Shown piece by piece: positions 3,397-15,707 of a stretch of 21,798 bases of DNA. This DNA comes from a virus. The position numbers and the translations under genes are program-made. The DNA lies in the IMG/VR virus record IMGVR_UViG_3300043410_001372, positions 1-21,798 of that record, one strand, 5' to 3'. The notes beneath the pieces are model-generated. The model made no database searches and was not told the DNA's origin. It saw nothing but the letters and a program-made list of their open reading frames with translations. How positions within the stretch are numbered: position 1 is the stretch's first letter; each line of letters starts with the position of its first letter.

Positions 3397-3428
3397 AGAG
3401 GCTAAGTTAAACACAAGGAGCGACACTG

Positions 3429-4154
3429 ATGTTCAAACTGTTAAGTACTGCCAATCCTAAGATCCAAAAGGGCACCAAATTAGGCTATTTGAGCTTTATC
3501 CTGCACCTTGCTCCTGCTGATCTTAGTGGTAAGGAGACTTGCCCTAAGCGGACAGCTGGTTGCACGAGTGCATGCCTTAATACTGCCGGGCGCGGTGGCA
3601 TGTTCCGTAAGGGTGAAACGACCAATGTGATCCAGCAGGCTCGTATACGCAAGACTCGTTACTTCTTTGAGGATAGAGATGCCTTTATGGAGGACTTGGT
3701 CAGTGACATTATGCGGGCGGTTAATTTTGCACGACGCAAGGGCTTGACTCCCGTGTTCCGCTTGAATGGTACTAGCGACTTGAGCTGGGAGAAGTATCCC
3801 ACTCGCTACGGTGCCAAGAACATCTTTGATCAGTTTCCTACACTACAGTTCTACGACTACACCAAAGTGTTGGGTCGTAAGGTTGCAGATATTCCCAACT
3901 ACCACTTGACGTTCAGTGCCGCAGATGGTAACGAAGCTGACGTGCAGAAGGCTATTAATGCAGGCATGAATGTCACAGTCGTGTTTGACAAGATCCCTGC
4001 AGAGTACATGGGCAAGCCTGTGTTCAATGCAGACGAGACAGACCTGCGCTTCCTGGATCCCAAGGGCGTGGTCCTGGGCTTGAAGGCCAAAGGTCGTGCC
4101 AAAAAGGACACTACAGGTTTTGTGCGCCGTACTATTATGATGAAGGTCGCATAA
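3429..4154 (+). CDS. Gene product 88-like conserved phage protein
   Basis: This 241-residue protein matches what I know of the gp88 family first named in mycobacteriophages. It has an N-terminal S-T-A-N-P-K-I-Q-K-G motif, a cysteine cluster (C-P-K-R-T-A-G-C-T-S-A-C-L) near residue 38, R-L-N-G-T-S-D-L near 112, F-Y-D-Y-T-K near 141 and a conserved N-Y-H-L-T-F-S. The biochemical role is unknown; the cysteines suggest metal binding. It has its own promoter and AAGGAGCG site. The stop overlaps the next start (TAATG), implying coupling to the membrane-protein gene. Confidence 0.88.
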   Translation: MFKLLSTANPKIQKGTKLGYLSFILHLAPADLSGKETCPKRTAGCTSACLNTAGRGGMFRKGETTNVIQQARIRKTRYFFEDRDAFMEDLVSDIMRAVNFARRKGLTPVFRLNGTSDLSWEKYPTRYGAKNIFDQFPTLQFYDYTKVLGRKVADIPNYHLTFSAADGNEADVQKAINAGMNVTVVFDKIPAEYMGKPVFNADETDLRFLDPKGVVLGLKAKGRAKKDTTGFVRRTIMMKVA

Positions 4155-5666: not shown

Positions 5667-5689
5667 ATGTTTTTTAGTTAGGAGCGTGT

Positions 5690-6524: not shown

Positions 6525-6551
6525 ATGTTTTTTACACAGAAGGAGCGATAG

Positions 6552-7372: not shown

Positions 7373-7398
7373 ATGTGTAAATTAATAGGAGCGAAACT

Positions 7399-7704: not shown

Positions 7705-7713
7705 GGAGCGACA

Positions 7714-7925: not shown

Positions 7926-7952
7926 ACACACATAGCAACAAAGGAGCGAGCG

Positions 7953-8503: not shown

Positions 8504-8526
8504 CAAATACTAACAAGGAGCGAACC

Positions 8527-9087: not shown

Positions 9088-9210
9088 AGTTAGAAAGCAA
9101 GGCGGTCCTCAAATGTAAGAACCCACGCAGAAATGCAAAAAGGGTTGTAACCAAGGGACACGAAGCGGGTTTGCGAGACCCGGCCTAAGCAAAACCAACT
9201 AGGAGCGAGC
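9088..9210 (+). ncRNA. Candidate structured leader RNA
   Basis: The leader of the gene at 9211 can fold into a branched structure: closing helix AGGC/GCCT (9100-9103 with 9183-9186), GTCCT/GGGAC (9105-9109 with 9155-9159), AACCC/GGGTT (9120-9124 with 9142-9146) with an inner GCA-GAAA-TGC hairpin, and CGGGT/ACCCG (9166-9170 with 9178-9182). It ends in AGGAGCG. I match it to no known riboswitch; it may be a regulatory leader or a small RNA. Confidence 0.4.
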
Positions 9211-12196: not shown

Positions 12197-12562
12197 ATGG
12201 CTACAGATAAACTCTTTAATGTTGTTGGCGTTTCTAAACTCAACGGTGAGTACAAGGTGCGCTTTGCGACTGATGTAATGCGAGTCAAGGTGCTCGCCAA
12301 ACACGGTCACGAAGACATTCGTCTTGCTGAGTTGGACAAGCCTATGACCAAGTATGATGGTGTTAAGGCTATCCAGAGCATGGATGAGTTCAAGGATGCG
12401 GCTGCTCAGTCAGCTATCGCCGACTACCTCGACGAGAAAGCACCTAAGGCTCCTAAAGCCAAGGCAGGCCCCGCTGTCAAGGCCCCAGCTAAGGCCACTA
12501 AGGTCAAAGCACCTGCAAAGGCCACAGTGCCTGCAACTGAGGACGAAGACGCTCCTTTCTAA
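12197..12562 (+). CDS. Conserved phage protein with Lys/Ala/Pro tail and acidic tip
   Basis: This 121-residue protein has an N-terminal domain (residues 1-80, starting MATDKLFNVVGVSKLNGEYK, an N-terminal pattern I recall from aquatic phages) and a tail of Ala/Lys/Pro repeats like histone tails. It ends T-E-D-E-D-A-P-F, close to the acidic tip of bacterial SSB proteins (D-D-D-I-P-F). The tail suggests nucleic-acid or partner binding; this is inference. It has its own promoter and no AGGAGC motif, unlike most genes here. Confidence 0.8.
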   Translation: MATDKLFNVVGVSKLNGEYKVRFATDVMRVKVLAKHGHEDIRLAELDKPMTKYDGVKAIQSMDEFKDAAAQSAIADYLDEKAPKAPKAKAGPAVKAPAKATKVKAPAKATVPATEDEDAPF

Positions 12563-12607: not shown

Positions 12608-12808
12608 ATGACCTGGGAACTCTACGAAGTTTGGGCTCGACACACAGACGGGTTTGAAGAATTGGTAATCACTACCAAAGATCTCAATGAAGCAAAGAAC
12701 GAAGCTAAGGTAACACTAGATGAGGAATCGGTAGACGAGTGCATCATTTACCGTGAAACCGAAGATGGTGACACTGAAGAAATAAGTAGACTATACAAGG
12801 GCCTCTAG
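12608..12808 (+). CDS. Conserved small protein overlapping a tRNA gene
   Basis: The 66-residue protein (MTWELYEVWARHTDGFEEL...) is acidic with I-Y-R-E-T-E-D-G-D near its end, a pattern I associate with small proteins of aquatic phages and proteobacteria. ATG 12608 is preferred to GTG 12581, which lies in the preceding hairpin; neither has a good Shine-Dalgarno. The final codons (K-G-L-stop) are the first ten bases of the tRNA-CAU gene. Confidence 0.7.
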   Translation: MTWELYEVWARHTDGFEELVITTKDLNEAKNEAKVTLDEESVDECIIYRETEDGDTEEISRLYKGL

Positions 12809-12876
12809 CTCATGTTGGTTAGAGCAGTGGACTCATAATCCATTGGTGCGCGGTTCGACTCCGCGGGGGCCCACCA
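12799..12876 (+). tRNA. tRNA with CAU anticodon (Ile2 or Met)
   Basis: A complete cloverleaf: acceptor GGGCCTC / GGGGCCC with one U-G pair, D arm, anticodon stem GTGGA / TCCAT around loop CTCATAA (anticodon 12834-12836), T arm CGCGG-TTCGACT-CCGCG and encoded ACCA end. The acceptor resembles tRNA-Ile2 (lysidine type) more than elongator Met, but sequence alone does not settle this. Confidence 0.93.
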
Positions 12877-12879
12877 ACC

Positions 12880-12954
12880 CTGGCCATAGTTCAATGGATA
12901 GAACAGTAGCCTTCTAAGCTATTAATCCAGGTTCGATTCCTGGTGGCCGGACCA
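12880..12954 (+). tRNA. tRNA-Arg (anticodon UCU)
   Basis: Acceptor CTGGCCA / TGGCCGG with one U-G pair, anticodon stem GTAGC / GCTAT with loop CTTCTAA (anticodon TCT at 12913-12915), T arm CCAGG-TTCGATT-CCTGG and encoded CCA. It reads AGA, common in phage and rarer in many proteobacterial hosts. Three bases separate it from the upstream tRNA, so both are probably one transcript. Confidence 0.95.
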
Positions 12955-13550: not shown

Positions 13551-13579
13551 AGACACATACACACTAAGGAGCGAACCTA

Positions 13580-13828: not shown

Positions 13829-13860
13829 CGACGCATACAGTAAACAAACAGGAGCGAAAG

Positions 13861-14288: not shown

Positions 14289-14309
14289 ACACACACAGGA
14301 GCGAAACTT

Positions 14310-14685: not shown

Positions 14686-14711
14686 AGAGTTTTAATTAAT
14701 CAAGGAGCGAC

Positions 14712-15605
14712 ATGCCTAAAGTAATCACAGTTGACAACCTGCCCAGCAAAACAGAAGTGCGCAGTTTGGCCACAGACACTAGTCTAGAACGCAAGAAAGA
14801 ATTGGCACTGGCCAATCAAACAGACGAAGAAATCATGACCCGTCTAGCTGATCGTTTTGAGATCCTAGAGGACATGACACGTGCCTGTAAAGGCGGCAAG
14901 GTTCGTGCCATGATCGTAACAGGCCCTCCAGGTGTGGGCAAGAGTTACGGTGTTGAGCGAGTACTAAGCAAGCACGATGTGTTCGCTGATGTTGCCAACG
15001 ATGGCAAGCTCAAAAAGTACGAAGTGGTCAAGGGCGCGATGTCAGCGATTGGCCTGTACAAGAAGCTGTATGAGTTCAGTGATCGCAAGAGCATACTGGT
15101 GTTCGATGACTGTGATTCAGTACTGCTGGACGACCTTAGCCTTAACATCCTAAAGGCTGCGCTAGACACTAGTAAGAAGCGTACCATACATTGGAACACG
15201 GACAGCCGCTTGCTACGTCAAGAGGGTGTGCCCAACTCATTCGAGTTCAATGGTGGCTGCATCTTTATCACCAACATCAAGTTCGATCACGTGCGCTCAA
15301 AGAAGCTTAAGGATCACTTGGAAGCCATTGAAAGCCGTTGCCATTACTTGGATCTAACCATTGATACAACACGTGAGAAGCTGTTGCGCATACGACAAGT
15401 TGTACGTGACTGTGGCATGTTGGATGCATATGATCTAGAGGATGCAGCCAAGGCAGAGGTAGTAGAGTTTGTAGAAGCTAACAAGGATCAACTGCGCGAG
15501 CTAAGCCTGCGCATGGTGCTTAAGATAGCAGACCTGCGTGTTAGCTTCCCCCACAAGTGGGCTAGCGTAGCCGCAGTAACATGTATGCGCGGCAGCGGCG
15601 CATAA
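14712..15605 (+). CDS. AAA+ ATPase
   Basis: This 297-residue protein has a Walker A motif G-P-P-G-V-G-K-S at residues 71-78, a Walker B-like strand I-L-V-F-D-D-C-D at about 128-135 and a sensor-1 type strand I-F-I-T-N ending at residue 188, in the usual AAA+ order. The N-terminal 70 residues are charged and helical. Such phage ATPases act in DNA replication, recombination or remodelling of protein complexes; the target is not indicated. It is the last gene of the plus-strand early region. AAGGAGCG lies before the ATG. The two-hairpin RNA at 15610-15707 is its 3' untranslated region. Confidence 0.9.
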   Translation: MPKVITVDNLPSKTEVRSLATDTSLERKKELALANQTDEEIMTRLADRFEILEDMTRACKGGKVRAMIVTGPPGVGKSYGVERVLSKHDVFADVANDGKLKKYEVVKGAMSAIGLYKKLYEFSDRKSILVFDDCDSVLLDDLSLNILKAALDTSKKRTIHWNTDSRLLRQEGVPNSFEFNGGCIFITNIKFDHVRSKKLKDHLEAIESRCHYLDLTIDTTREKLLRIRQVVRDCGMLDAYDLEDAAKAEVVEFVEANKDQLRELSLRMVLKIADLRVSFPHKWASVAAVTCMRGSGA

Positions 15606-15707
15606 GGTTAACAGGATCAGCCCTAGTCCGATTCGCTCCCGGCCGCTGACTCTGTTCATCCCCTGACATAAATCCGATTCGCTCCCGGTGGTCAGGGGAT
15701 TTTTTTT
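15606..15707 (+). ncRNA. Two-hairpin candidate sRNA with anti-Shine-Dalgarno loops
   Basis: Hairpin 1: AACAGGATCAG (15610-15620) pairs with CTGACTCTGTT (15646-15656), 11 positions with one G-U and one mismatch. Hairpin 2: ATCCCCTGAC (15658-15667) pairs perfectly with GTCAGGGGAT (15691-15700) and is followed by eight T. Each loop contains the same 16 bases (15627-15642; 15673-15688) with TTCGCTCC, complementary to GGAGCGAA found before many genes here. No promoter is visible directly upstream, so it may be cut from, or terminate, the AAA+ gene's mRNA. The trans-acting role is inferred. Confidence 0.55.
15658..15707 (+). terminator. Strong intrinsic terminator
   Basis: A perfect 10-base-pair stem with a 23-base loop and a run of eight T. 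It ends the plus-strand early region. Confidence 0.9.

Follow-up and report, generated by a model that had tools for sequence, protein, structure and literature searches.

Tandem hairpins downstream of a phage AAA+ gene

The window, a 21.8-kb virus record analyzed over its whole length (21,798 nucleotides), codes for an AAA+ ATPase that belongs by homology to the NrdC.10 AAA+ family, whose T4-like homologs are annotated nrdC.10, and the 3′ untranslated region (3′UTR) of this gene houses two tandem hairpins (Table 1). A 16-mer, TCCGATTCGCTCCCGG, is present on the + strand at 15627-15642 and again at 15673-15688, with no other copy in the record, and RNA folding gives both hairpins a 9-nt apical loop, ATTCGCTCC, closed by CCG/CGG. 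The second hairpin has a GC-rich stem followed by T8, and it is the only one of the two with the features of an intrinsic terminator. A sequence-only reading of this DNA had described tandem hairpins sharing an identical 16-base loop sequence downstream of the AAA+ gene, the second of them a terminator, and the fold, the two exact copies, and the stem with its T8 run bear out both descriptions. The fold by itself is only mildly unusual (z = −1.72), and the fold of a single sequence is therefore insufficient as proof. We found no prominent promoter inside the 3′UTR, the nearest candidate (15406-15434) being a weak 9/12 match, and no Rfam family matched the element in either the window or five related loci.

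Table 1. Host gene, hairpins, and loop-complementary ribosome-binding sites (RBSs) in the window
Feature	Position	Strand	Basis
AAA+ ATPase gene, T4 NrdC.10 homolog	14712-15605	+	phrog_1250, E = 3.9e-83 (PHROG)
Hairpin 1	15610-15656	+	RNA fold; apical loop AUUCGCUCC at 15631-15639
Hairpin 2 and T run, intrinsic terminator	15658-15707	+	RNA fold; stem 15658-15700, loop AUUCGCUCC at 15677-15685
RBS GGAGCGA, gene 3429	3417-3423	+	7-nt complement of loop
RBS GGAGCG, gene 5690	5681-5686	+	6-nt complement of loop
RBS GGAGCGA, gene 6552	6542-6548	+	7-nt complement of loop
RBS GGAGCGAA, gene 7399	7388-7395	+	8-nt complement of loop
RBS GGAGCGA, gene 7714	7705-7711	+	7-nt complement of loop
RBS GGAGCGA, gene 7953	7943-7949	+	7-nt complement of loop
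RBS GGAGCGAA, gene 8527	8517-8524	+	8-nt complement of loop
RBS GGAGCGA, gene 9211	9202-9208	+	7-nt complement of loop
RBS GGAGCGAA, gene 13580	13568-13575	+	8-nt complement of loop
RBS GGAGCGAA, gene 13861	13851-13858	+	8-nt complement of loop
RBS GGAGCGAA, gene 14310	14298-14305	+	8-nt complement of loop
RBS GGAGCGA, AAA+ gene 14712	14704-14710	+	7-nt complement of loop

The loops are complementary to ribosome-binding sites of the early cluster

The unpaired, pyrimidine-rich apical loop AUUCGCUCC is the exact complement of the RBS consensus, and thus of a Shine-Dalgarno (SD) sequence. Twelve RBSs in the window match it, five over 8 nt, six over 7 nt, and one over 6 nt, all of them lying where the sequence-only reading had placed them (Table 1); about a dozen start sites have just 5 nt (GGAGC) in common with the loop. 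The 8-nt form, GGAGCGAA, occurs seven times in the window against 0.45 expected, as the five RBSs and, on the opposite strand, the two loops, and GGAGCG has 19 matches against 5.9 expected, a number reached by none of 100 shuffles. Duplexes between the loop and the 7- and 8-nt sites are predicted at −12.3 to −13.3 kcal/mol, and those of the generic 16S anti-SD on the same sites are weaker, at a predicted −6.5 to −9.1 kcal/mol. Pairing of the RNA with the phage start regions had been put forward as a check, and it favors the loop: its mean predicted binding to 28 start regions is matched by only 2 of 300 shuffled loops.

At the AAA+ loci, the commonest 8-mers upstream of start codons are AGGAGCGA (223 of 1,278 distinct contexts) and GGAGCGAA (183 of 1,278), and inside coding bodies (585 kb) they have only four and five copies, respectively; GGAGCGA is the most frequent RBS of these phages, and we refer to the loop-complementary RBS extension as the tag. 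Over whole contigs, GGAGC RBSs gather in the 10-20 kb adjoining the hairpins, a region rich in sigma-70-like promoters, and are scarce elsewhere; in one contig (G007), GGAGC is present in 24 of 31 GGAG RBSs at 20-40 kb versus about 6 of 37 elsewhere, and two others (G001 and G004) have a similar concentration. This clustering beside the hairpins is therefore no general property of host translation, and we discarded a host-wide RBS preference. The tagged genes are probably early, as their host-type promoters suggest. Also in the window are two adjacent tRNA genes within the early cluster (12799-12952; Rfam tRNA) and a GP88 family gene (3429-4154; PF17338, E = 7.6e-40) whose RBS is tagged.

Conservation of the hairpins in uncultured relatives

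The nearest cultured relatives of the AAA+ protein are in PA5oct-like jumbo phages (48-49% identity), and a DnaB-like helicase in the window also has strong matches in the PA5oct-like group (57%), but no cultured phage gave a DNA match to the AAA+/3′UTR region or to the hairpin. Relatives are abundant in IMG/VR, with contigs of up to 383 kb, and the group occurs widely in freshwater and in the sea, with no cultured member found in this analysis. That the RNA stems from the host or a prophage was also considered and rejected, the two-copy loop pattern having no match among 84,980 genomes of bacteria and archaea. One 5.9-kb contig binned as a Flavobacteriaceae metagenome-assembled genome (L254; PKDU01000070.1) resembles a fragment of a phage from this group.

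The exact 16-mer is present in at least 119 viral contig stretches, and of the first 80 AAA+ relatives listed, nearly all have hairpins with the ATTCGCTCC loop in the AAA+ 3′UTR, usually as a pair of which the last is usually a terminator; hairpin 1 of these relatives is often not one. The loop is constant across dozens of viral contigs, and the stems vary yet remain paired, with different closing pairs (CCG/CGG, ACG/CGG, GTG/CAC, and CTG/CAG) under a fixed loop. Pairing in hairpin 2 was judged by a flank-permutation test, the stems being out of register in a gapless alignment; across 38 distinct homologs, the mean longest helix formed by the flanks is 11.1 bp, versus 6.4 bp with the 3′ flanks permuted among loci, and the loop AUUCGCUCC is wholly unpaired in 29 of the 38 minimum free energy folds. 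Automated scanning for hairpins near RBS complements gave many weak folds at opposite-strand RBS sites and was left out.

Loop and tag covary among lineages

Covariation of loop and RBS had been set beforehand as a test of the sequence-only reading, and we examined it over several hundred loci reached via distant AAA+ relatives, with the tally made on deduplicated loci and the freshwater and marine labels taken from apparent sample origin. The outcome is three cognate pairs with no discordant locus among those classed. In freshwater, loop UUCGCUCC is paired with RBS GGAGCGA, and the 121 loci with this loop have GGAGCGA 484 times, GGAGCAA 33 times, and GAGGGCA once. A mainly marine clade has two to four 3′UTR hairpins with the loop UGCCCUC (often GUGCCCUC) and the RBS GAGGGCA(C), sites of which likewise cluster beside the AAA+ gene; here, 34 loci give GAGGGCA 139 times, GGAGCAA 11 times, and GGAGCGA three times. 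A third lineage (L406) has three 3′UTR hairpins with UUGCUCC loops, and its RBSs are GGAGCAA in 18 instances with none of the others. Counting only loci whose loop could be classed and that have three or more tagged genes, 85 + 24 + 1 = 110 are concordant and none is discordant. The UGCCCUC class (marine, 100/99) and the UUCGCUCC class (83/80) form separate clades in the AAA+ tree; the switch of loop from UUCGCUCC to UGCCCUC took place once or a few times, and the many concordant loci are therefore not independent.

Loss of the loop is also mostly accompanied by loss of the tag. Relatives without the loop mostly have no tag, and in the nested no-loop groups L264-L287 and L314, L320, and L326, the tag has gone too; L324, which lies inside the second of these groups, has kept both. 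Neither tag nor loop is present in the 150 kb covered of the outgroup phage PA5oct. At some tagged loci, the stretch retrieved contains no loop, and several of the contigs concerned are short. There are also exceptions to exact pairing: L302 has the loop UCGCUCC with RBSs that are mostly GGAGCAA, L364 has AUCGCUCC (which keeps UCGCUCC) with GGAGCA or GGAGCGC, and L386 has AAGGGGCA; L254 and L417 have GAGGAGCAC, which carries one extra A relative to the perfect complement and pairs only with that A bulged (GAGG-A-GCAC). In L320, we found no hairpin complementary to its recurrent RBS, ACGGAGAAAC, and either the system has been lost or its loop went undetected. The L320 contig (G019, 259 kb) has a very regular early RBS, ACACAACGGAGAAACAAAATG.

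L320 shows that a recurrent RBS cassette can occur with no matching loop, which speaks for a reading in which the hairpins are ordinary terminators with the loop conserved as a protein-binding site, and the RBS likeness arises incidentally as a promoter-RBS cassette spreads. Hairpin 2 is indeed a terminator, and the early genes share promoter-RBS layouts; however, a protein site leaves the occurrence of loop-complement RBSs in three sequence classes unexplained, and the frequent lack of terminator features in hairpin 1 does not suit the terminator reading, so that we consider this account very improbable. Pairing of the loop with 16S rRNA, which presumably has an internal GGAGCGAA-like stretch, was dropped, since the changed loop tracks the RBS rather than the rRNA. 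Base pairing between loop and RBS is thus strongly backed by the sequence comparison, and we regard it as highly probable.

The pairs are lineage specific and mutually exclusive, as might be expected of an immunity code, and the RNA of a resident phage could silence early genes in an incoming phage that bears a matching tag. There is a precedent in the c4 antisense RNA of phages P1 and P7, a contributor to their immunity that blocks a phage RBS through complementary segments in its loops (PMC12197685). Such phage-phage exclusion is compatible with the repression of a phage's own early genes, but a single code is common to very diverse freshwater lineages and would resolve self from non-self poorly, and there is no sign of lysogeny; as an explanation of the element, it seems quite unlikely.

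Hairpins behind other genes and loop complements in late leaders

The loop is found not only behind the AAA+ gene, but also downstream of a winged-HTH (HTH_39) gene and of a small-protein gene homologous to window positions 12197-12562 (these alternative sites include L083:5562, L086:4380, L113, L130, and others), and some contigs have more than one hairpin site. Where the hairpins follow the AAA+ gene, 51 of 57 distinct AAA+ genes of the first, freshwater set are tagged themselves (GGAGCG), and at most marine loci the AAA+ RBS bears the new tag. Behind the HTH_39 gene and behind the third gene, the RBS of the preceding gene is tagged in 0 of 17 and 0 of 11 cases, respectively, and in both contexts the AAA+ gene and many separately promoted genes are still tagged. 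In the HTH_39 context, the hairpin lies just ~0.8-0.9 kb behind the AAA+ gene, and it is possible that the two share a transcript. The gene hosting the RNA is thus separable from its presumed targets, which favors action in trans.

These arrangements bear on a suggestion of the sequence-only reading, that the element is a 3′UTR control of its own mRNA. The loops would then fold back onto the RBS of the AAA+ mRNA and autoregulate that gene or operon only, and both the frequent tagging of the AAA+ gene and the presence of its RBS and the loops on one transcript are in keeping with this. However, because the hairpins also follow two genes that never have a tagged RBS of their own (0 of 28 outside the AAA+ context), and because some contigs have multiple sites, we do not favor control in cis as a general account and think it rather unlikely.

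In several contigs (L150, L153, L189, L087, L212, L217, and L218, as well as L210 and L211), the 16-nt reverse complement of the loop sequence, CCGGGAGCGAATCGGA, or its 9-nt core lies between TAAATA, a T4-type late-promoter-like sequence, and a start codon. In these leaders, the loop complement serves as the RBS, often within a small CCG/CGG hairpin. The presumably late genes behind them code for a product that is either CsgF-like (Pfam CsgF, E = 1e-10) or 93 aa long and hydrophobic at its N terminus. One contig (G004) has the hairpins together with such a leader. The late leaders may be the strongest targets of the RNA, or they may be decoys. As possible decoys, with their 9-16 nt of complement in a small hairpin, they accord with a role in which pairing sequesters the hairpin RNA or shields the tagged mRNAs, for example, against a RegB-like nuclease that cuts GGAG, with activation or buffering as the net effect. 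T4 RegB cleaves GGAG in early RBSs and so inactivates early mRNAs post-transcriptionally (PMC3014915). We think a sponge or protective role unlikely, however, since the pairing lies over the SD itself and is more readily explained by repression.

A candidate phage-encoded anti-RBS RNA

We propose that the 3′ end of the AAA+ (nrdC.10-like) transcript gives rise to a phage-encoded anti-RBS RNA of which the hairpins are the active part. The apical loops AUUCGCUCC would pair with the lineage-specific tag GGAGCGAA, which overlaps the SD of many early-cluster genes, and because the pairing covers GGAG, it should compete with the ribosomal anti-SD and reduce translation. As the RNA accumulates, translation of the tagged genes would fall, giving either a collective shutdown or a damping of the early genes. 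The 3′UTR could be released or accumulate as a small RNA, as precedents such as CcsR suggest, and the overlap with the SD, together with known loop-SD small RNAs such as RNAIII, points to repression in trans. Such an RNA, of about 100 nt if stable, might also drive the early-to-late switch raised in the sequence-only reading.

The sequence-only reading is supported in part. The idea at its core, an RNA directed against the phage's own early RBSs, finds strong support in the complementarity and the covariation. To judge from the sequences, it is very likely that the phage controls its own early protein synthesis through these loops, and the best explanation, which we think probable, is that an anti-RBS RNA from the AAA+ 3′ end represses the tagged early genes. 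We lean slightly toward a broader interpretation, that this is a translational regulon with a private code, in which the SD extension is the code and the 3′UTR hairpins are the anti-code, the two co-evolving as the pairs GGAGCGAA/UUCGCUCC, GAGGGCA/UGCCCUC, and GGAGCAA/UUGCUCC.

Known anti-SD small RNAs have a generic motif and reach their targets by extra pairing. Among these, the CcsR or alphaproteobacterial "cuckoo" RNAs have tandem hairpins with identical C-rich anti-SD loops, built on the generic motif CCUCCUCCC. They differ from the phage element in being host-encoded stress RNAs with no known matching RBS tag, and instead of a CCUCCUCCC loop behind an alphaproteobacterial host gene, we find AUUCGCUCC, UGCCCUC, and UUGCUCC loops behind phage genes; we saw no sequence relation between the two, and no Rfam match. 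The Rhodobacter RNAs CcsR1-4 are processed by RNase E from the 3′UTR of a protein gene (PMC8307010). In Staphylococcus aureus, loops 7 and 13 of RNAIII repress coa through pairing of a C-rich loop with the SD (PMC2837412). RNAIII and the Rsa RNAs are similar to the phage element in that a single RNA offers C-rich loops on several hairpins to the SDs of many mRNAs; they are, however, bacterial and chromosomal, and combine a generic anti-SD motif with target-specific pairing, whereas the phage early RBSs bear a dedicated extension, and loop and extension have changed together.

The c4 RNA (RF01695) is likewise a phage RNA with loop complements of a phage RBS, here evident as complementarity and covariation, but the likeness is one of analogy only: c4 has one mRNA target and acts in prophage immunity, whereas many early genes are tagged here. 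The c4 covariance model gave no match in the window at E values up to 1, and none at gathering score in five related loci. T4 is a related type of phage, the AAA+ protein of the window being NrdC.10-like, and its early mRNAs are also targeted at GGAG RBSs, but RegB is a protein nuclease, whereas recognition here would be by an RNA loop.

In the literature, we found no description of the element, and no account of any phage regulon that combines tagged RBSs with a cognate loop evolving alongside them. The parts have analogs in RNAIII, CcsR, and c4, and there is a real chance that the whole deserves its own class of anti-SD RNA control. If the proposal is correct, these genomes carry a code for translational control in which the targets are tagged and the regulator keeps pace with the tag as it changes. 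The element would then be the RNA analog of a multi-operator repressor, acting on the translation of early genes in large aquatic phages. The question of how large lytic phages coordinate early genes post-transcriptionally would gain a new answer, and the cognate sets would be ready-made orthogonal loop/RBS pairs.

Additional structural features

Two features outside the apical loops recur in relatives. Many copies of hairpin 1 (in L005, L012, L018, and others) share a conserved internal loop immediately beneath the apical stem (CCAA opposite GYAA), and a UAAR-U bulge is conserved in hairpin 2 in the AAA+ 3′UTR of relatives; both may be protein-binding or tertiary features.
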